The translations under genes were made by a program, and so were the position numbers. Shown one piece after another: positions 54,784-64,000 of a DNA stretch of 64,000 nucleotides (within the stretch, counting starts at the first letter, position 1; each line of letters starts with the position of its first letter). The DNA lies in the NCBI RefSeq assembly GCF_009755225.1, contig NZ_WQKZ01000002.1, forward strand, positions 930,001 to 994,000, written 5' to 3'. The notes beneath the pieces are model-generated. The model saw nothing but the letters and a program-made list of their open reading frames with translations, ran no database searches and was not told where the DNA came from. Source of the DNA: Hymenobacter ginkgonis. Its GTDB lineage: Bacteria; Bacteroidota; Bacteroidia; Cytophagales; Hymenobacteraceae.

Positions 54784-55269
54784 ATGAAGACCCCCGCCCC
54801 CGCTGAAGACGCCAGTAGTAAACCGGTTCGCAAACGCACCAAGACCCGGCCCGCGGCTCGCCGCCGCACTATCGAAAACACGTACTCCGACCCCGCCCTG
54901 CGCGAGCGCCTAAAAGAAGAGATTCGCGCTGCGGCCAAGGGCGGCGACCCGGGCACTTGGAGTGCCCGCAAGTCGCAGCTGCTCACTCTGGCTTATCAAA
55001 AGCAGGGTGGCGGCTACTTGCAGCAACACCCCAACTCCAAACAGAAAGAGTTGAAGGAATGGACCAAGCAAGACTGGCAAACGTCTGACCAGCAGCCCGC
55101 TCGCCGCGCCACTGGTACCACGCGCTACCTGCCCAAAAAGGAATGGGAATCGCTAACGTCTGCTGAAAAAAAGGCTACCAACGCGAAGAAAAAAGCCGGC
55201 TCCCGCGCCGGCGAGCACGTGGTAGCCAACACGGCTGCCACCAAGCGCTCCCAGCTCCCGCTCAAATAG
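54784..55269 (+). CDS. Small basic DUF5872-like protein
   Basis: The 161-residue cytoplasmic protein is very basic (Lys/Arg-rich N-terminus KPVRKRTKTRPAARRRT). The core matches what I know of DUF5872: TYSDPALRERLKEEIRAAAK, then GDPGTWSARKSQLLTLAYQK with GGGY, and a second segment LPKKEWESLTSAEKKATNAK. The family is shared by diverse bacteria and large DNA viruses of eukaryotes and has no known function. The charge suggests nucleic-acid binding. A strong terminator follows. Confidence 0.75.
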   Translation: MKTPAPAEDASSKPVRKRTKTRPAARRRTIENTYSDPALRERLKEEIRAAAKGGDPGTWSARKSQLLTLAYQKQGGGYLQQHPNSKQKELKEWTKQDWQTSDQQPARRATGTTRYLPKKEWESLTSAEKKATNAKKKAGSRAGEHVVANTAATKRSQLPLK

Positions 55270-55301
55270 CCCGCGGCAAAGCCTGCGGCTACCCTACTTT
55301 C

Positions 55302-55343
55302 GCGAAGCCGATGGCACATGCCGTCGGCTTCGCTTTGTTTTTT
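55302..55343 (+). terminator. Terminator of the DUF5872-like gene
   Basis: Arms GCGAAGCCGATGGCA (55302-55316) and its near-complement (55319-55333, one G-U pair) are followed by TTTGTTTTTTG. It lies between the DUF5872-like gene and galM. Confidence 0.85.
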
Positions 55344-55347
55344 GCCC

Positions 55348-56391
55348 ATGCCTACGCCCTCTGCTGGTTACCCTACCCCCTCCCTATTTACCTTGCAAAA
55401 TGGCCGCGGTATGCAGGCCACCATTAGTGCGCGCGGCGGCACGCTCACAAAGCTGCTGGTGCCCGATAAAAGCGGCGTGCTGGGCAATGTGGTGTTAGGG
55501 TTCGACGACCCGGCCACGTATGCTAGCGAAGCCTACGAAAGCAAGAATATCTACTTTGGTGCGCTCATTGGGCGCTACGCCAACCGCATCCGGCACGGCC
55601 AGTTTACGCTGGATGAGCAAACCTATTCCTTACCCATCAACAACGGGCCTAATTCGCTGCACGGTGGCCCGCAAGGCTTCGATAAGCAGCAATGGGCGGC
55701 CCAGCCTGGCACCTCAGCCGACGGGCCTACCCTGGTGCTGCACTACCAAAGCCCGGCTGGCGAGGAAGGCTACCCCGGTACCTTGTCCGTAACGGCGGTA
55801 TATACCCTAACTGAGGCCAATGTGCTGCGCATCAGCTACTCGGCTACTACCGACCAGCCTACGGTGCTCAACCTCACCAACCACAGTTACTTCAACCTCG
55901 ACTACGGCCTGAGTTCAAATATTCTGGACCATGAGCTGCGGCTGCTCGCCGACCGCTATACGGTGGTAGACAATACGGCCATCCCGACCGGCGAATTACG
56001 GGGGGTAGGGAGCTCGCCCTTCGACTTTCGGGCTGCGCACCGCATAGGCGAGCGCATGGCCCAGGTGCCCGGCGGCTACGACCACAACTGGGTGCTGCAC
56101 GACTACCTGCGGCCCCACTCGGCGCTGGCCGCCGAGGTGTACGCTCCGCTGTCGGGCCGCACTATGCAAGTACACACCGACCAGCCGGGCGTGCAGTTCT
56201 ACGCCGGCAACTTCCTCGATGGTAGCTTGCAAGGCCACGGCGGCATCGCCTACGGCCCGAACTACGGCTTTGCCCTCGAAACGCAACACTTCCCCGATTC
56301 GCCCAACCAGCCCAGCTTCCCGACTACCGTGCTGCGGCCTGGCGAAACCTTCGAGTCGACTACTGAATACCACTTCGGCGTGCGCGAATAG
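55348..56391 (+). CDS. galM: Aldose 1-epimerase (mutarotase)
   Basis: The 347-residue enzyme interconverts alpha and beta anomers of glucose and galactose. It shows the substrate Arg in GRYANRI, the first catalytic His in NGPNSLHGGPQGF, the second in LTNHSYFNLDYG, the GGYDHNWVL segment, and the catalytic Glu in FALETQHFPDSPN. The ATG at 55348 is used, because an in-frame start 30 bases earlier lies inside the preceding terminator. No signal peptide is seen, so it is cytoplasmic. Together with the other enzymes of the window it handles glucose released from glucans. Confidence 0.95.
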   Translation: MPTPSAGYPTPSLFTLQNGRGMQATISARGGTLTKLLVPDKSGVLGNVVLGFDDPATYASEAYESKNIYFGALIGRYANRIRHGQFTLDEQTYSLPINNGPNSLHGGPQGFDKQQWAAQPGTSADGPTLVLHYQSPAGEEGYPGTLSVTAVYTLTEANVLRISYSATTDQPTVLNLTNHSYFNLDYGLSSNILDHELRLLADRYTVVDNTAIPTGELRGVGSSPFDFRAAHRIGERMAQVPGGYDHNWVLHDYLRPHSALAAEVYAPLSGRTMQVHTDQPGVQFYAGNFLDGSLQGHGGIAYGPNYGFALETQHFPDSPNQPSFPTTVLRPGETFESTTEYHFGVRE

Positions 56392-56450
56392 CATTCGGCG
56401 TTAGTAGGGGGTAGGGGCTGAACGGTTCTTTCTCGGCTACGGCGCCCCAA

Positions 56451-56503
56451 CGAAAGAAGGCCGGCCTTTTCTCTGGTAAAGAGGAAAGGCCGGCCTTCTT
56501 TCG
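56451..56503. terminator. Hairpin between galM and the Thr/Gly-rich lipoprotein gene
   Basis: A perfect stem of 20 or more bases (CGAAAGAAGGCCGGCCTTTT and complement) encloses a short CTCTGGTAAAGAG region. It can terminate both convergent genes. Confidence 0.85.
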
Positions 56504-56529
56504 TGCCTGCTTAAGCAGACGCTGAGAAG

Positions 56530-56823
56530 TTAGGAAGTAGTCGTGCCGGTGGTGGTGGTACCGGTGGTGGTGCCGGTAGTTGTGCCGGTGGTAGTCGTAC
56601 CCGAGGTAGTCCCAGTAGTAGTGCCTGAGGTGGTACCCGAAGTAGTGCCCGTAGTGGTAGAGCCCGAAGTGGAGCCCGTAGTAGTAGTGCCTGAAGTGCC
56701 GGACGTAGTGCCAGAGGTACTACCCGACGCACCATCGGTGCCGGTGGTGGCGCAGGCACTCATAAGCGCAAGCGAAGCGCAGAGGGCAGTGCCCATTAAC
56801 AGTGAAAGCCGGTTGCGTTTCAT
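56530..56823 (-). CDS. Small lipoprotein with a Thr/Gly/Ser repeat tail
   Basis: The 97-residue product has a lipoprotein signal (LCASLALMSAC, Cys at about 23). The mature part, about 70 residues, is nearly all Thr, Gly and Ser in short repeats (TSGTTSGT, TTTGTTTG, TGSTSGS). No domain is visible. This looks like a flexible, possibly glycosylated, surface tether or spacer. Repeats at the DNA level are only approximate. I chose the ATG at 56823; an upstream start adds 15 residues that precede the signal core. I do not recognise a family. Confidence 0.7.
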   Translation of the reverse strand: MKRNRLSLLMGTALCASLALMSACATTGTDGASGSTSGTTSGTSGTTTTGSTSGSTTTGTTSGTTSGTTTGTTSGTTTTGTTTGTTTGTTTTGTTTS

Positions 56824-57073
56824 AGGCTGAGAAGGGGGAAAAGTAAATGAAGTAACGCTAACGAGCACATTATCAATTATGTTGTATAAGCGCCAGTTAT
56901 TTTTTGCTGGCGCTTATACATTCCTCACTCTTCAACCAGCCAGCAAAGCCGGCAAAAAACGCTTGTTTGAAATGCTAGGCTACTAATAGCGGGTCAGCTA
57001 CTGTTGAGGTAAATACTAAGGCAAATTACCAGCCTTACCCCCATTTTCGTAGCGCTTCGGCACACGTATTCTC

Positions 57074-59119
57074 CTAATCGCGCTTACTTTTCAGCAGTTG
57101 CTTGAGGGCGCCCAGCTCGTCGCGGAGCTTGGCAGCCTGCAAGAAATCGAGTTCTTTGGCCGCGGCTTCCATCTGCTTTTCGGTAGTTTTGATGAGCTTT
57201 TCCAGCTCGGCGCGGTTCATCATGGCTACCACGGGCTCGGCGGCCATAGCCAGGGCAGCACCCCCTTCGGCGTAGGCGCCGGCCGGGGCCTGTGCCTCCA
57301 CAATGCGGTAGTCGGCCAGGTCGGTTTGGCCCATAATCTGGGCGTGCGACTTGCGCACGGTGCGTGGCGTGATGCCGTGCTCCTCGTTGTAAGCTTGTTG
57401 AGTGGCGCGGCGCCGGTTAGTCTCATCAATGGCGCGCTGCATAGAACCCGTCATGCGGTCGGCGTACAGAATAACCTTGCCATTCTCGTTTCGGGCCGCC
57501 CTACCCATGGTCTGAATTAAGGAGCGCTGGTCGCGCAGGAAACCCTCCTTATCCGCATCCAAAATGGCCACCAAGCTTACTTCTGGCAAGTCGAGGCCTT
57601 CGCGCAGTAGGTTTACACCGATGAGCACATCTACTTCGCCCAGCCGCAAGCGGCGCAAAATCTCCACACGGTCGAGCGTCTTCACATCCGAGTGAATGTA
57701 TTCGACCTTGATGCCTAGGCGCTCCATGTATTTGCTCAGCTCCTCGGCCATGCGCTTGGTTAGCGTCGTCACGAGTACCCGGTCGCCAGCTTTCACGCGC
57801 TCGTCTACTTCGTCGAGCAGGTCGTCAATCTGGTTGATGCTGGGGCGCAGGTCAATTTCAGGGTCGAGCAGGCCGGTAGGGCGAATGATTTGCTCGACCA
57901 CCACCCCGTTGGCTTGGGTTAATTCATAATCGGCGGGCGTAGCCGATACGTACACAGCCTGCCGGTACATGCCCTCAAACTCGTTGAAAGTCAGCGGCCT
58001 GTTGTCAAAAGCAGAGGGTAGGCGGAAACCGTATTCAATGAGCGCCGTCTTGCGCGAGCGGTCGCCGCCCCACATGGCCCGAATCTGCGGGATGGTGGCG
58101 TGGCTTTCATCCACAACCAGCAAATAATCCTGGGGGAAGTAGTCGAGCAAACAGAACGGCCGCGAGCCCGGCTCGCGCCGGTCGAAGTAACGCGAATAGT
58201 TTTCGATGCCCGAGCAATAACCCAGCTCGCGTATCATTTCGAGGTCGAACTCGGTGCGCTCCTGAATGCGGCGCGCTTCCACGTCGCGGCCTTCCTTCTC
58301 GAAGTACTTGTGCTGCAACACCATATCATCCTGAATTTCGTGGATGGCGGTTTGCAGCGTTTCCTTACCCGTCACAAACAAGTTGGCGGGATAGAGCGTC
58401 ATGTTTTTCTCGTCCGAGATTTTGCGGCCGCTCGCGGGGTCGATTTTCTGAATGGCCTCAATCTCGTCGCCGAAGAAGAAAATGCGGTAGGCATAATCGG
58501 CGTAGGCCGGAAACACGTCCACGGTGTCGCCCTTCACCCGAAACGAACCACGCGTAAACTCCACCTCGGTGCGCGAGTACAGAATTTGCACGAACTGGTA
58601 GAGTAGGTTATTGCGCGAATAGCGGTGGCCGGGGGCCAGAAAAATGACGTTTTTGCTAAACTCCTCGGGGTTGCCGATGCCGTAAATGCACGATACCGAG
58701 GCCACCACCACCACATCGCGCCGCCCGCTGAGTAGGGTAGAGGTGCAATGCAGCCGCAGCTTCTCAATTTCTTCGTTGATGGCTAAGTCCTTCTCAATGA
58801 AGACGTCGGAGCTGGCAATATAGGCCTCCGGCTGGTAGTAGTCGTAGTAACTGATGTAGTACTCAACGGCATTTTGCGGAAAAAATGCCTTGAACTCGCC
58901 GTAGAGCTGGGCGGCCAGCGTCTTGTTGTGGCACAGCACCAGGGCCGGTTTGCCGGTTTCGGCAATCACGTTGGCCATGGTGAAAGTTTTGCCCGTGCCC
59001 GTGGCGCCGAGCAGCACCTGGGCCGGCTCGCCGCCGTTCACGCCCTTCACGAGCTCGGCAATAGCGCGCGGCTGGTCGCCGGTGGGCTGAAATTCAGAAG
59101 TAAGCTGGTACGTGGACAT
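57074..59119 (-). CDS. uvrB: Excinuclease ABC subunit B
   Basis: The 681-residue helicase-like subunit of nucleotide excision repair loads on damaged DNA from UvrA and recruits UvrC. It shows the Walker A motif LLGATGTGKTFTMAN near residue 40, the beta-hairpin region with YDYYQPEAYI, the DEAD-type DESHAT in LLVVDESHAT, the motif VI region LIQTMGRAARN, and a C-terminal UVR domain (about 645-681, KQMEAAAKELDFLQAAKLRD). Length fits the family. Confidence 0.97.
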   Translation of the reverse strand: MSTYQLTSEFQPTGDQPRAIAELVKGVNGGEPAQVLLGATGTGKTFTMANVIAETGKPALVLCHNKTLAAQLYGEFKAFFPQNAVEYYISYYDYYQPEAYIASSDVFIEKDLAINEEIEKLRLHCTSTLLSGRRDVVVVASVSCIYGIGNPEEFSKNVIFLAPGHRYSRNNLLYQFVQILYSRTEVEFTRGSFRVKGDTVDVFPAYADYAYRIFFFGDEIEAIQKIDPASGRKISDEKNMTLYPANLFVTGKETLQTAIHEIQDDMVLQHKYFEKEGRDVEARRIQERTEFDLEMIRELGYCSGIENYSRYFDRREPGSRPFCLLDYFPQDYLLVVDESHATIPQIRAMWGGDRSRKTALIEYGFRLPSAFDNRPLTFNEFEGMYRQAVYVSATPADYELTQANGVVVEQIIRPTGLLDPEIDLRPSINQIDDLLDEVDERVKAGDRVLVTTLTKRMAEELSKYMERLGIKVEYIHSDVKTLDRVEILRRLRLGEVDVLIGVNLLREGLDLPEVSLVAILDADKEGFLRDQRSLIQTMGRAARNENGKVILYADRMTGSMQRAIDETNRRRATQQAYNEEHGITPRTVRKSHAQIMGQTDLADYRIVEAQAPAGAYAEGGAALAMAAEPVVAMMNRAELEKLIKTTEKQMEAAAKELDFLQAAKLRDELGALKQLLKSKRD

Positions 59120-59211
59120 GCAAAAGCAGCCGGAAAAAAGGCCAACCTAGCTAACCCTAAATAGGGCGCTTGGGTTTCTGCACTTCCAAAATACCCGCTT
59201 CCTAAATGGGC

Positions 59212-59643
59212 TTAGCGTGGCCGCAGGCGTAGAACAGCCGTTTTGGCCTGGCCGGTGCCGCCCGTAGTAGAGGGGTAGGGAGTGACGTTGAGCAAGCGCA
59301 GCCAGTAGTCTTGCTGGTTGAGGGTAACGGCAATGGAGTCGCGGGTGTAGTCGGGCGAGGGCTTGTTGAGCAGGCTCAGCCGCGCCGTTTGGGCCACGAC
59401 CGAGGCGTCGCTCAGCTTCAGCGTCACGGCTGCGTAGCCCGCCCAAATGCAGTAGGCGTTGATGGGGCAGCGCGAATCCTGCACGTCGGTTAGGCTAATG
59501 CTTATCGGGCTGCTCCCGGTGGCCAGTGTAGTAGTTTGGTTAAGAGGTAGCTCGAACGTTTGGTTTAGGGCAGGCCCCGGCTGGTCTTTTTTGCAGGCCA
59601 GCAGGGTGCAGCCGGTTAGCAGCGCGAAGAAGGTCTTTTTCAT
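59212..59643 (-). CDS. Small lipoprotein of unknown function
   Basis: The 143-residue protein has a lipobox (LLTGCTLLACKKD; the second Cys, after LLA, is the likely lipidation site). The mature region forms beta strands, with DSRCPINAYCIWAGYAAVTL, two Cys likely in a disulfide, and ends QAKTAVLRLRPR. Similar small lipoproteins with a CPxxxxCxWxG motif are common in Bacteroidota, with unknown function. It lies between uvrB and the barrel/anti-sigma-like gene on the same strand, 92 and 68 bases away. Confidence 0.75.
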   Translation of the reverse strand: MKKTFFALLTGCTLLACKKDQPGPALNQTFELPLNQTTTLATGSSPISISLTDVQDSRCPINAYCIWAGYAAVTLKLSDASVVAQTARLSLLNKPSPDYTRDSIAVTLNQQDYWLRLLNVTPYPSTTGGTGQAKTAVLRLRPR

Positions 59644-59711
59644 AGCAAAGGTTGGGAAAGCAAACAGCGCATTTCTGGTTGCTTAAAGCCTAAACACCAG
59701 CTGACTACTTT

Positions 59712-61433
59712 TTATTCGGCTTTTGGCCGCAGCATGTGCGGCGTCCGGCCCAGCTCTACCCCTGCTTCGAGGCCGAAGCTGTAGGGCCGTTTTTGGCTCA
59801 AGAAACCCTGCACCGGGTCGGCATTCAGACTCAAAATGCCAGCCTCAGCCACTGGCCCCAGGCTGAGGGCCCACTGGTGGCCGGTGGGCCGGTACTGCAC
59901 GCCCGCGCCACCCCGCACGCTGCCCGACAGGTGCCGGTACGGCGAGCTGGCCGACATCAAGGTGTAGGTGCGGGTAGCTTCGGCGTTGCCTTCTACCTCG
60001 CTGCGCACGTTGAGCAGCGCTGTAATGAGGCCACCTACCCGGCCATAAAACGAGAAGCCGGTTTTGGCCGGGTTGCTATAGTGCACCTCCACCGGCACGC
60101 TGGCCGAGCGGTAGCGAAACGACGTGTTGTGCAGGCGCGCCGGCGCCACGGTGTAGTTGAGGCTAAGGTCGGCCACTTGCTCGCCCACAAAGTCCATGGT
60201 AGTAGCCGAGCTCGCTGTGTTCTGCGCCAGTTCGAGGCCGGTGCGCAAGCCAAACCGCCCGTTGCCGAGGCGGCGCGTAGCCCACAAACTCAGGCGCTGG
60301 CCCAGGCCGGGGCGCAGGTTGCGGCGGTACTCGGCGGCCGCGCTGCGCGTCACATCAGCCGAAAAGCTGCCCAGTGCATTGCTATAGGTAGTGGCTTCTC
60401 TGGTGAAGTCAATGTTGGGCTGGTACGCACTGGTGGCATAGCCCAGGCCATATTGCCAGCGCCGCGCCATAGTGGGGCTCGGCTGCTCGGGCAGGGGTAG
60501 GGCCCCTAGGCTGCTAGGCAAGCCAGCAGCGTCGGCCAGTGCCAGTTGGGCCGGTCGGGTGGCTAATGCGTCGGCTGCGGCCGCTACTTCAAGCGGCTGG
60601 GCCGCAGTAGGGGCCGCCACTTCAAAGCCCGCGTTGGCTCCAGCCAGCGGCTCAACAGCCGGCTTAGTTGAGCGCGTAGCTGCGGCAAGCATGGTGCTTG
60701 GCTGCCCTGTGGCGCTGCTAGCAGCTGCCACTGAGCTAGGGTAGGGCTGGCCGGCCGCAAGTGTGGTAGCCGCCGCATCGCGGCCAGCTACCACACTTGC
60801 CAGCTCTGAGGGGGTAAGTGGGTTAGCAGCCGCTGGGCGATGAGCACCACGTTTCCGCTGAGCTAGGTCAGCATTAGCATAGCTGGCATCCGCTCCATAA
60901 GAAAGTGTATTGCTAGACTCCGGCCGGCCGCTGTTCGCCGCACTAGCCGAATAATAACGCTTAGGAGAAGGTGTAGCGGGTTGGGCGATAGTAAGTGCGT
61001 TAGGAGTGGAAGAAACAGAACTAGCTGCGCCCGCTAAGGGCGCTGCGGAAGCCACCGCTGGCGCAGCACTTGCCGCTTGGCCAGTGCTTGCCGAAGCCCC
61101 TGCCGGCAGGCGGCTAGGGCGCAGCGCTACGCGCCCGGCTGCCCCCAGCGCGCCGGGGCCGGTTGGGGTGGCCTGGGCGAGGGGGGTAGGGGCCTGCTGC
61201 TGGCTGTGCCACCAGCCGCCGCCGGCCAGCGTAGCCAGCAGCAAGCTGGCTGCCACAGCCCAGCGGTGCACGAGCAGGCGGCGGCGGTATTTCTCATTCT
61301 GGGCTAGGAGTAAGCTGTTGTCCAGCTGCTCCCACACGTGGGGGCGCGGCGGCACGGCGGCCGCTTCGCTTTCCAGCAGGTGGTGGCGAAACAGGTCTTC
61401 CAGGCTGCCTTTGGGGGGGGTAGGAGAACTCAT
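59712..61433 (-). CDS. Membrane-anchored protein with Ala-rich linker and C-terminal outer-membrane-type barrel
   Basis: The 573-residue product combines parts usually found apart. Residues 1-52 are cytoplasmic and resemble the anti-sigma part of ECF partner proteins (EDLFRHHLLESEAAAVPPRP, HVWEQLDNSLLLAQNEKYRR). One membrane helix follows at about 56-75. Then comes a linker of about 240 residues rich in Ala, Ser, Thr and Pro. From about 320 the sequence is that of an outer-membrane beta-barrel (RRWQYGLGYATSAYQPNIDF, RFGLRTGLELAQNT, FYGRVGGLITALLNVRSEVE). No signal peptide precedes the helix. It starts 35 bases after the ECF sigma gene and could be its regulator, spanning both membranes. Confidence 0.72.
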   Translation of the reverse strand: MSSPTPPKGSLEDLFRHHLLESEAAAVPPRPHVWEQLDNSLLLAQNEKYRRRLLVHRWAVAASLLLATLAGGGWWHSQQQAPTPLAQATPTGPGALGAAGRVALRPSRLPAGASASTGQAASAAPAVASAAPLAGAASSVSSTPNALTIAQPATPSPKRYYSASAANSGRPESSNTLSYGADASYANADLAQRKRGAHRPAAANPLTPSELASVVAGRDAAATTLAAGQPYPSSVAAASSATGQPSTMLAAATRSTKPAVEPLAGANAGFEVAAPTAAQPLEVAAAADALATRPAQLALADAAGLPSSLGALPLPEQPSPTMARRWQYGLGYATSAYQPNIDFTREATTYSNALGSFSADVTRSAAAEYRRNLRPGLGQRLSLWATRRLGNGRFGLRTGLELAQNTASSATTMDFVGEQVADLSLNYTVAPARLHNTSFRYRSASVPVEVHYSNPAKTGFSFYGRVGGLITALLNVRSEVEGNAEATRTYTLMSASSPYRHLSGSVRGGAGVQYRPTGHQWALSLGPVAEAGILSLNADPVQGFLSQKRPYSFGLEAGVELGRTPHMLRPKAE

Positions 61434-61468
61434 AATAGCTAGTAGTAGACTGGGTGCCGGGCCGAGGG

Positions 61469-62080
61469 TTACCGGCGAGCTAATTTTTGTTGAAGCACCA
61501 CGCGGGCGCGTGAATACTGAGATTTGCTAGTGCCTTCCGAAATGTTGAGCAGTTCGCCAATCTCCTTATGGGTGTAGCCTTCGATAGCGTATAAGTTGAA
61601 AACCAAGCGGTAGCGCGGTGCTAGCTCCTGCACAATGGCCAGCAGCTCGGCGTAGGCATAATTACTGAACGTAAATTCTTCACTGGCCAGCGTATCGGGG
61701 TAGTCGCCGTCGCTCACGGCCACGAGCGGGGCGTTGCGGCGGTGCTGGCGCAGGGCCGCATTTATCATAATGCGCCGAATCCAAAACTCTAGCGGGCACT
61801 CGCGCCGGAAGCTGCCTAGCGTCCGAAACACGGTTAGAAAACCTTCTTGCAGTACATCTTCGGCCTCGAAGGTGGTTTGGGCGTAGCGCAGGCACACGGC
61901 CATCATGCGGGCAGCGTACTTATCGTAGAGCTGCTTTTGGGCCAGCTGCCGCCCTTGCAGGCAGCCGTCGATTAGCTCCTCTTCGGTGGGCACGGCGGGG
62001 GGGGTAGGGCGGCTAGCAGTGAGGCCTTTGCTGGCCGGGTCACTCGCCCCCATGGCCAGGGCGGGCCAAACGGCGCTCAT
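61469..62080 (-). CDS. ECF RNA polymerase sigma factor
   Basis: The 203-residue protein has sigma region 2 (TEEELIDGCLQGRQLAQKQL, VLQEGFLTVFRTLGSFRREC, PLEFWIRRIMINAALRQHRR) and region 4 (LAPRYRLVFNLYAIEGYTHK, EIGELLNISEGTSKSQYSRA). This is the FecI/YlaC-like ECF type common in Bacteroidota, in which the partner gene lies directly downstream. That partner is the membrane protein with barrel 35 bases away. The first ~30 residues are Pro/Ala-rich; a later in-frame ATG at about 62053 is a possible alternative start. Confidence 0.92.
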   Translation of the reverse strand: MSAVWPALAMGASDPASKGLTASRPTPPAVPTEEELIDGCLQGRQLAQKQLYDKYAARMMAVCLRYAQTTFEAEDVLQEGFLTVFRTLGSFRRECPLEFWIRRIMINAALRQHRRNAPLVAVSDGDYPDTLASEEFTFSNYAYAELLAIVQELAPRYRLVFNLYAIEGYTHKEIGELLNISEGTSKSQYSRARVVLQQKLARR

Positions 62081-62415
62081 GCGCGGGCCCGGTGTGGGCC
62101 GGGGTAAAATCCGTTCAACATAGGCAAGGCAGAATGCAAAGGAAACGAAGTGCGTACGAAGAGTTAGCCAAACTAAACGCGCTGGCTCCGGTAAGAAGCC
62201 TAGCGCCCTCTAAACGTTGCATATGCACCTTAGTGTGTAAGCTAGTTGAAAATAGGACTCTGAAAGACAGCGTGTTATAATGCGAGCGGTAAAATTCTGC
62301 AATAATGTGCAGACATTAAATGTATGTACATGAAACAAATTGCTACTTTTATGAACCTGCTGCGTACTTAGCGCGACTACTACACCCAATTTTTCCTCCA
62401 CTTTCTCTTTTGCCC
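62081..62415. other. Gene-free gap between ECF sigma operon and wrbA
   Basis: About 335 bases of divergent intergenic DNA, AT-rich towards wrbA. I see a TACTTTTA string (62344-62351), one base from the -7 consensus, without a suitable TTG. No other signal or gene is evident. Confidence 0.4.
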
Positions 62416-63030
62416 ATGAAGACTCTTGTGTTGTTTTATTCTACGTATGGCCACGTGTGGAAATTGGCCGAGGCCATTGCTGAAGGTGCCCGCCAAGTAC
62501 CTGGCAATGATGTAATCGTTAAGCGCGTGCCCGAAACGCTCCCCAAAGAGGTACTAGATAAAACGGGCGCTACCGGCGCGCAGCAGGCTTTTGCCCACGT
62601 ACCCGTAGTTACCCCGGCCGAATTGGTAGAGTACGATGCCATCATCTTCGGTACGCCCACCCGCTACGGCAACCTTTGCGGGCAGATGCAGTCGTTTATG
62701 GACAGCACTGGCGGCTTATGGGCCACGGGGGCTTTGGTGGGTAAAGTAGGCGGGGCCTTCGTGAGCACCGCCACGCAGCACGGCGGCCAAGAAGAAACCT
62801 TGCGCGCTTTTCATACCGAGCTATTGCACCACGGCTTTATTATCGTGGGCCTGCCCTACGCCTGGCAGGGCCAAATGGGCCACGAGGAAGTAACCGGTGG
62901 CACGCCTTACGGCGCCAGCACCGTAGCCGGCGGCCAGGGTGAGCGCCAGCCCAGCAAAAACGAGTTGGAAGGAGCGCGGTTCCAGGGCCGCCACACGGCC
63001 GAAATAGCCCAGAAAGTAGCCGCCAAGTAA
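62416..63030 (+). CDS. wrbA: NAD(P)H:quinone oxidoreductase (WrbA type)
   Basis: The 204-residue flavodoxin-like enzyme reduces quinones by two electrons with FMN and NAD(P)H, avoiding semiquinone radicals. It has [20 protein letters not shown] (FMN phosphate loop), [39 protein letters not shown], and [16 protein letters not shown], all typical. The ATG at 62416 is used because the flavodoxin fold begins right after it. It is a single gene with a perfect hairpin terminator. Confidence 0.95.
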
Positions 63031-63061
63031 TAAGCCTAAAGCTGCGTTAGCAGCGTCAATT

Positions 63062-63107
63062 AACAAGAGGGGGGTAGCAACTAAGCAGTTGCTACCCCCC
63101 TCTTGTT
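63062..63107. terminator. Perfect hairpin terminator between wrbA and aroE
   Basis: Arms of 21 bases (63062-63082 and 63087-63107) are exact complements around AAGC. The stem contains the GGGGGGTAG word of this genome. It serves the two convergent genes. Confidence 0.88.
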
Positions 63108-63126
63108 GGTTAAGCCTCACACTGGC

Positions 63127-63882
63127 TTACTTCGGCAAGGCCTGCCCATTCCAGATGGCCCAGGCAGCCTCAGCCTGGAGCTCCAGCATCTCAAAACCGT
63201 TGCAGGTTTGTGCGCCAGCCGCGCGGCCCAACTCCAAAAAGCGGGTTTCGCGCGGATTGTATATCAGGTCGAACAAGTAGTGAGCCGGCGTGAGCGCCGC
63301 GTACGGAATGGCGGGGCACTCAGTCACGTTGGGGTAAGTACCGAGCGGCGTTGTATTAATGATAAGCGAATGGCCGGCCATCACTTCCGGCGTGAGCTCC
63401 GAATACGTGAGGTGCGCGCTAAGCGGGTCGCGTGAAACCAGCCAGTGCGGAATATCCAGTTCGCGCAGGGCCATGCTTACGGCCTTAGCCGCGCCGCCCG
63501 TGCCCAGCACCAGCGCCCGGTTGGCGGGACCCCGGCCGGGGTAAAAGCGACGCAGTGAGTTGCGAAAGCCCAGGTAGTCGGTATTGTGGCCTACCAAGCC
63601 ACCATTCAGCTGAATCTCAATCACATTGACGGCGCCTACAAGGGCGGCCGACGAAGCAACGCTGGTAAGGTAGGGCCAGATTTTCTCCTTATATGGAATC
63701 GTGACGTTCAGCCCGGCTAAATCGGGGTGGCGGGCTAATAGCTGGGGCAACTCATTAGGATTAGCCAGTTCAAATAGCTCGTAGTGGCAATCATCCAGCC
63801 CAAGTCGGTCGAATTTCTGCGTGAAATACGTCTGTGAGAAAGAGTGCGAAAGCGAGCGGCCGATAAGCCCGAAGGTGCGCAT
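63127..63882 (-). CDS. aroE: Shikimate dehydrogenase
   Basis: The 251-residue enzyme reduces 3-dehydroshikimate with NADPH in the aromatic amino acid pathway. It shows the substrate segment GRSLSHSFSQTYF, GLNVTIPYKEKIW with the catalytic Lys, HNTDYLGF with the catalytic Asp, the cofactor loop LVLGTGGAAKAV, and the late QTCNGFEMLELQAE. It is somewhat shorter than the E. coli enzyme (272 residues), typical for Bacteroidota. Confidence 0.95.
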   Translation of the reverse strand: MRTFGLIGRSLSHSFSQTYFTQKFDRLGLDDCHYELFELANPNELPQLLARHPDLAGLNVTIPYKEKIWPYLTSVASSAALVGAVNVIEIQLNGGLVGHNTDYLGFRNSLRRFYPGRGPANRALVLGTGGAAKAVSMALRELDIPHWLVSRDPLSAHLTYSELTPEVMAGHSLIINTTPLGTYPNVTECPAIPYAALTPAHYLFDLIYNPRETRFLELGRAAGAQTCNGFEMLELQAEAAWAIWNGQALPK

Positions 63883-63939
63883 AGAGTGCTGAGAAATACG
63901 AATTAAATGAGCAGCGCCTAGCGCAGTTGCCCCAGCAAG

Positions 63940-64000
63940 CTACGCCGCCGCGCCGCGCAGCTTGCCACGCACAAACTGCCACAGCGGCGGCAGCACCGAT
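63940..64000 (-). CDS. 3' end of a gene running off the right edge
   Basis: On the reverse strand an open frame enters from the edge and ends at TAG (63940-63942), 57 bases before the aroE start. The visible residues are SVLPPLWQFVRGKLRGAAA, a plausible basic C-terminus. Codon use is normal for this genome, but 19 codons are too few to name the protein or to exclude chance. Confidence 0.35.
   Translation of the reverse strand, partial: SVLPPLWQFVRGKLRGAAA

Follow-up and report, generated by a model that had tools for sequence, protein, structure and literature searches.

Can a single protein hold an ECF sigma factor in the cytoplasm and also reach the outer membrane? Two adjacent genes raise this question within the window, a stretch of 64,000 nucleotides from Hymenobacter ginkgonis (contig NZ_WQKZ01000002.1, positions 930,001 to 994,000). 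The first-pass annotation placed a sigma factor gene here beside a gene whose product might span both membranes. Its open reading frame coordinates and its sigma factor call are borne out: both frames lie on the minus strand, and the upstream product carries sigma domains in Pfam and NCBIfam. The genes, with a possible third operon member, are as follows.

61469-62080, minus strand: ECF-type sigma factor, 203 aa (Sigma70_r2, Sigma70_r4_2 and sigma70-ECF matches; relatives in 80 loci)
59712-61433, minus strand: predicted Dma-type dual-membrane anti-sigma protein, 573 aa, by AlphaFold2 (AF2) model, fold comparison, conservation and matches in the genus
59212-59643, minus strand: small lipoprotein-like gene downstream, 143 aa, possible third operon member

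The sigma factor matches Sigma70_r2 (2.1e-13) and Sigma70_r4_2 (9.3e-16) in Pfam and sigma70-ECF (2.3e-25) in NCBIfam, and it scores 71.2 bits against TIGR02985 (Sig70_bacteroi1), for which the cut-off is 126.4. The nearest relatives of its gene among the 80 loci are Hymenobacter records, with identity of at most 91%. The gap between the sigma ORF and the downstream ORF is 35 nt in the window. Related loci usable for the anti-sigma gene number 79 of 80, one (L101) ending before it, and in 69 of these 79 the last 4-35 nt of the sigma gene also belong to the anti-sigma frame. A search for inverted repeats around the two genes gave nothing of note.

The 143-aa lipoprotein-like product has no Pfam family at E up to 1. 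An ORF of the DSRCP/CIWxG type lies downstream in 8 of the 79 related loci. Under a loose lipobox rule the count is 38 of 79, several of these matches being doubtful (for example a 701-aa frame), with a further 10 of 18 among additional loci in which head and barrel are fused. The same rule gives 0 of 55 at loci where the anti-sigma protein lacks a barrel and 20 of 556 among control ORFs; the recount in the wider set was made without L114, L151 and L158. A separate small lipoprotein-like ORF is found in the window at 56530-56868 on the minus strand, its long tail made almost entirely of Gly, Ser and Thr.

The downstream product had earlier been described as an anti-sigma-like start, one helix, a linker of ~240 residues rich in Ala, Ser and Pro, and a barrel. 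That description proved accurate, and four segments can be delimited.

61278-61433, minus strand: residues 1-52, conserved head, predicted to be cytoplasmic and sigma-binding (conservation; the head profile lies next to a sigma gene in 88 of 90 loci examined)
61209-61262, minus strand: residues 58-75, single predicted inner-membrane helix, N-terminus inside by charge bias (hydropathy, AF2, charge)
60489-61199, minus strand: residues 79-315, low-complexity, unconserved linker, predicted to be disordered and periplasmic (entropy, AF2)
59745-60470, minus strand: residues 322-563, predicted OmpA-type beta-barrel (AF2, fold comparison, OMP_b-brl_2)

In the AF2 model, built with 20 sequences, helices occupy residues 11-24 and 31-78, the second running into the membrane segment, and pLDDT stays below 50 across nearly all of residues 79-315. 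Nine strand elements fall between residues 326 and 561; our interpretation is a barrel of eight strands with a hairpin extension at 483-491. By ten-residue blocks, most of the barrel is at pLDDT 79-98, with lower values in the loops. The mean pLDDT of the whole model (62.6) and its pTM (0.47) are low, as expected from the long disordered linker. By sequence the barrel is weak in the 573-aa protein, matching PF13568 at E 8.5e-4, below the curated cut-off, and OMP_b-brl_2 is found at E up to 0.1 in 13 of the 20 members of alignment A1. By fold it is clear: in VIA comparison the barrel aligns with NspA (Z 16.0), the N-domain of OprF (15.5) and OmpA entries (14.9-15.4) over 133-173 residues; soluble barrels, the photosystem II O-subunits, match the model at Z 9.1-10.2.

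Conservation follows the same division. Whether homologues keep all parts had been proposed as a check, and an alignment of 77 sequences shows conservation at the two ends but not in the linker. In 20-residue blocks the mean column entropy is 1.05-1.74 bits for residues 1-80, 2.60-3.06 bits over residues 81-320 and 1.39-2.67 bits over residues 321-560, where 10 of the 12 blocks lie at 1.39-1.89 and the most variable stretch is residues 421-440 (2.67). This alignment is without L049, which has a broken frame, and L108 and L109, which have no barrel. Trp34 of the head is invariant in alignments A1, A2 and A5, the last of which omits L114 (the window itself), L151 and L158. The 77 linkers are 137-267 residues long (median 214), with a pooled composition of Ala 24%, Ser 10%, Gly 10%, Thr 10% and Pro 7%, and no cysteine occurs among their 16,559 residues. 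A membrane helix is predicted in 77 of 77, with a 17-residue hydropathy of at least 1.28. Lys plus Arg average 4.43 before this helix versus 1.52 after it, the inside count being the greater in 76 of 77. Together, the fold and the charge bias support a protein that spans both membranes, its N-terminus apparently lying in the cytoplasm, its single helix in the inner membrane and its barrel in the outer membrane.

No Pfam FecR or DUF4880 match was obtained for the 573-aa protein at E up to 1, nor did the anti-sigma alignment give any sequence match to a solved structure at E up to 1. A protein of the same genome that is FecR-like by eye matches residues 19-84 (E 2.1e-4), that is, the membrane helix and part of the head.

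Is such a layout new? PMC13088901, citing PNAS 2024, describes 'dual membrane-spanning anti-sigma' (Dma) proteins encoded beside a sigma gene in B. thetaiotaomicron, composed of an N-terminal anti-sigma domain, one transmembrane helix, a long disordered tether and a C-terminal beta-barrel, and found solely among Bacteroidota. This account rules out novelty of the two-membrane anti-sigma layout, a kind in print since 2024. Because the four-part layout and the adjacent sigma gene correspond to the published description, the Hymenobacter protein is, by architecture alone, a new Dma member. The earlier suggestion that one protein links sigma control to an outer-membrane-type barrel therefore stands as far as fold, conservation, charge bias and gene order favour it, and falls as an original idea, having already been published for Dma1 and Dma2. 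To the published Dma work the present analysis adds the occurrence of the design, a split variant, and an indication that genes for outer-membrane assembly may be under its control.

As to occurrence, a full-length search matched the 573-aa protein in 37 of 37 genomes of the genus and in 0 of 22 genomes from other genera of the order, so that the Dma design is present in every searched genome of a genus far from the gut Bacteroides. Of the 30 genus loci read, 29 have head and barrel in a single open frame, and for 28 of these a sigma frame is directly upstream within the available stretch. When a profile of residues 1-85 was searched against 395 genomes sampled from the phylum, it matched in 101. 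No relatives were found on plasmids. At one genus locus (L031, in genome G010) the fused gene is in two open frames of 326 and 244 codons, a state that could be either a broken gene or a sequencing error.

The head profile finds two layouts, one fused with a barrel and one barrel-less, or split. We examined 90 loci, the window included, made up of 30 given by the search, 20 chosen mostly for long frames and 40 chosen for short frames; because the loci were partly hand-picked by frame length, the ratio of fused to split forms is not a natural frequency. A sigma gene, identified with the same profile throughout, lies within about 250 nt upstream of the head in 88 of the 90. At 55 of them the head protein is short (185-345 aa) and without a barrel. 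In 48 of these 55 loci the next gene encodes a secreted barrel-type protein of a single homologous family (one BLAST cluster); in 6 it encodes a member of a second family, and in the remaining 1 a protein of neither. Eight of the 48 run past the end of the available stretch. By a simple rule, 54 of the 55 next-gene products have a signal-peptide-like start, and 21 of the 48 individually match OMP_b-brl_2 (E up to 0.01). The second secreted family (at L184, L189, L190, L194, L197 and L198) is without a clear Pfam family.

The window's genome also has a split locus (C1, about 1388226-1390975; L142:1427-4176), consisting of a sigma gene, a 345-aa head and a 378-aa secreted barrel protein that matches PF13568 at 1.5e-9. 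In one hhalign comparison the fused barrel resembles the separate secreted proteins (probability 95, E 3.8e-8), which may reflect a general likeness among small barrels. In a quick sigma tree of 99 rows at least 5 changes between fused and split are needed, where shuffles give 32, and the well-supported branches force only 1 change. The tree omits L114 (the window), L151, which has another C-terminal part, and L158, in which neither a barrel nor, by our test, a sigma gene is present. At L151 (2439-5123, minus strand) the same head and membrane helix begin an 895-aa protein, the rest of which is by eye of carboxypeptidase-regulatory, TonB-plug and von Willebrand type. A partial literature search by titles and abstracts found no split form of such a system, and the words 'split' and 'BamA' are absent from the main text of PMC13088901 in a word search. 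Comparison of natural systems of the fused and split kinds could reveal what is gained by the physical link.

Which genes would the sigma factor transcribe? A predicted promoter lies before its own gene.

62193-62221, minus strand: predicted ECF-type promoter of the sigma gene, TGCAACG-N16-CTTCTT, ending 112 nt before the sigma ATG

Of the 80 loci, 77 carry the pattern TGCAAC[CG]-N15-18-N[ACT]TC[TCA] ahead of the sigma gene, compared with a mean of 0.42 in 50 first-order random sets and 1 in the reversed sequences. The three loci without it (L108, L110 and L111) are all outside the Hymenobacter-Pontibacter group. A stricter form ending in TCTT occurs in 30 of the 80, the -10 box being looser in most. 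PMC9723704 reports a motif of ECF type from F. psychrophilum in which the -10 box is CGT. The TGCAAC promoter type is not peculiar to the fused form: in the wider set TGCAAC precedes the sigma gene at 36 of 55 loci with the split layout and at 8 of 32 with the fused one.

Searching the window's own genome with the strict pattern TGCAACS-N15-17-YHTCTT gave 15 sites, against 4 with the pattern reversed and 3 with a changed -35 box. Of these sites, eight end 8-112 nt ahead of an ATG taken as a gene start, and none of the eight falls within an ATG-started same-strand ORF of at least 150 codons. They precede the sigma gene, uppS (followed by bamA), a family 2 glycosyltransferase gene, a gene for an S41 C-terminal protease, a 90-aa ORF, a DUF5683 gene (followed, by eye, by dapB) and two small barrel genes. 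The 90-aa ORF (L211:1217-1486, minus strand) consists largely of Gly-Ala-x-Ala-type repeats, with the predicted promoter 14 nt before it. The other seven of the 15 sites were not counted as promoters: three (L202, L204 and L206) lie inside ATG-started same-strand ORFs of at least 150 codons, and the rest are without a convincing gene start.

The uppS site was followed through the genus. TGCAACC stands before uppS in all 30 Hymenobacter loci examined, which are the best 30 matches of 60 genus genomes with the gene and so lean to near relatives. By comparison, 200 shuffled 7-mers average 0.37 matches in the same upstream regions. The strict pattern is present in 23 of the 30, and the other 7 differ in the -10 box. 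The site forms an island of conservation, the top-base frequency over the 30 loci being 1.00 in TGCAACC and 0.40 in the 56 nt upstream. The spacer between the -35 and -10 boxes (CGTAACTTGC; L217-L246) is almost as conserved as the boxes themselves, which suggests a second, overlapping element, and such an element could explain part of the conservation. Four loci were checked for frames over the site: none has one on the same strand, and 2 have one on the opposite strand. In the window's genome an opposite-strand frame of 187 codons overlaps it.

Other candidate targets are less constant. The -35 core is upstream of the S41 gene in 10 of 27 genus loci and the strict pattern in 7 of 27, 3 of 30 loci being left out because the seed used gave no start. 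Upstream of DUF5683 the core occurs in 18 of 30 and the full pattern in only 2, namely the window's genome and one other in which it lies inside the expected gene. Outside the genus, even TGCAAC is present in only 1 of the 28 uppS upstream regions examined. Conservation of the regulon past close relatives is thus weak or absent for S41 and DUF5683, and likewise for uppS beyond the genus. Since the same promoter type precedes split-form sigma genes and the window's genome also has a split system, the assignment of targets is not unique; we infer that this sigma factor, and not a paralogue, reads the uppS site. A partial search by titles and abstracts found no report of uppS-bamA control by such a sigma factor. 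The split form and the uppS-bamA promoter are the additions worth following, and the promoter with its candidate targets makes the purpose of the Hymenobacter Dma-type protein testable.

The explanation that we consider probable is that a Dma-type one-piece anti-sigma protein holds an envelope-stress ECF sigma factor, which once freed drives its own gene pair and genes of outer-membrane construction. The helical N-terminus (residues 1-55) would hold the sigma factor inactive in the cytoplasm, as family and gene order suggest. One helix would cross the inner membrane and the flexible linker the periplasm, leaving the small barrel in the outer membrane. Should that end be misplaced or altered, the anti-sigma protein would presumably be cut or pulled and the sigma factor released. 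Release on loss of the outer-membrane end is drawn from published gene deletions in Bacteroides: Dma1 or Dma2 loss takes effect by way of the cognate sigma factor, and the phenotype of Dma2 loss depends on its sigma factor Das2, according to PMC13088901. The freed sigma factor would transcribe its own gene pair and, in Hymenobacter, uppS-bamA, a step supported by promoter conservation in that genus; in this genome it may also transcribe the S41 C-terminal protease and small barrel protein genes.

The signal, presumably some state of the outer membrane, could be barrel assembly itself, which fits the predicted targets, or an outside ligand, as the Bacteroides authors propose for Dma2. In the first case the barrel would itself depend on the barrel-assembly machinery, and the signal would be whether it has been inserted correctly: on failed assembly the anti-sigma protein, lacking its anchor, would be destroyed, and the sigma factor would increase expression of uppS-bamA and envelope proteases. 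We put this forward tentatively, as possible but doubtful. If it were true, the Bacteroidota would have a one-protein equivalent of sigma-E/RseA/DegS, plus a split two-protein version. If the bamA link holds, the system is a candidate for an outer-membrane stress response of Bacteroidota. None turned up in the literature searches made, and a word search of two papers on the Bacteroidota BAM complex (PMC12611786 and PMC12578637) gave no sigma-factor or stress-response wording.

With an outside ligand as the signal, the barrel would be a receptor that recognises a glycan or other external molecule and frees the sigma factor, envelope repair not being its purpose. The same hypothesis is stated for Dma2 in PMC13088901, and the variability of barrel residues 421-440 (noted above) is of the kind often seen in outside loops. 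Against this, the predicted targets are genes of outer-membrane construction and not of uptake, and inspection of the ORFs at 55000-64000 by eye revealed no TonB-dependent receptor; we regard a receptor role as rather unlikely. It is improbable, too, that the hydrophobic segment is a signal peptide or a site of constitutive cutting, with the barrel released to the outer membrane, the head an ordinary anti-sigma factor and the two ends working apart. Head and barrel can indeed be separate, as the split form shows with its secreted barrel-type protein after 48 of 55 barrel-less heads, and they are in two frames in the one genus genome G010 (L031), but they share one open frame in 29 of the 30 genus loci, and some 55 residues of charged head precede the helix, which is not the usual make-up of a signal peptide. 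That the C-terminal domain is a periplasmic or structural barrel, paired with the sigma factor merely by co-transcription, is very improbable: the weak barrel-family match and the likeness to soluble photosystem II O-subunits speak for it, but the best structural matches are outer-membrane barrels (Z 15-16), and the head and sigma genes travel together, barrel or not, in 88 of 90 loci.

Our preferred reading, a one-piece anti-sigma protein held at both membranes, can be set beside three known systems. With the Dma proteins the Hymenobacter protein shares the single helix after the head, the long disordered tether, the C-terminal barrel and the ECF sigma gene alongside. It differs in its host and in predicted targets that include uppS-bamA, whereas those reported for Dma2 of B. 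thetaiotaomicron in PMC13088901 are its own operon and polysaccharide-utilisation loci.

The other two systems divide the task among several proteins. In FecI-FecR-FecA an ECF sigma factor is controlled from the outer membrane via an inner-membrane anti-sigma protein, and this mode of control is what the Hymenobacter system would have in common with it. Unlike that system, receptor and anti-sigma factor are here one protein, the barrel is small, and no TonB-dependent receptor is seen alongside. The split form, with its sigma factor, head and secreted barrel, comes nearer to the FecI-FecR-FecA layout, although the barrel is still of the small OMP_b-brl type where a family was matched. In RpoE-RseA-DegS of E. 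coli a separate protease senses misfolded barrels. The likeness there is in the envelope-stress output, which includes the uppS/bamA neighbourhood; the difference is that RseA has no barrel, whereas the 573-aa anti-sigma protein is predicted to have one.
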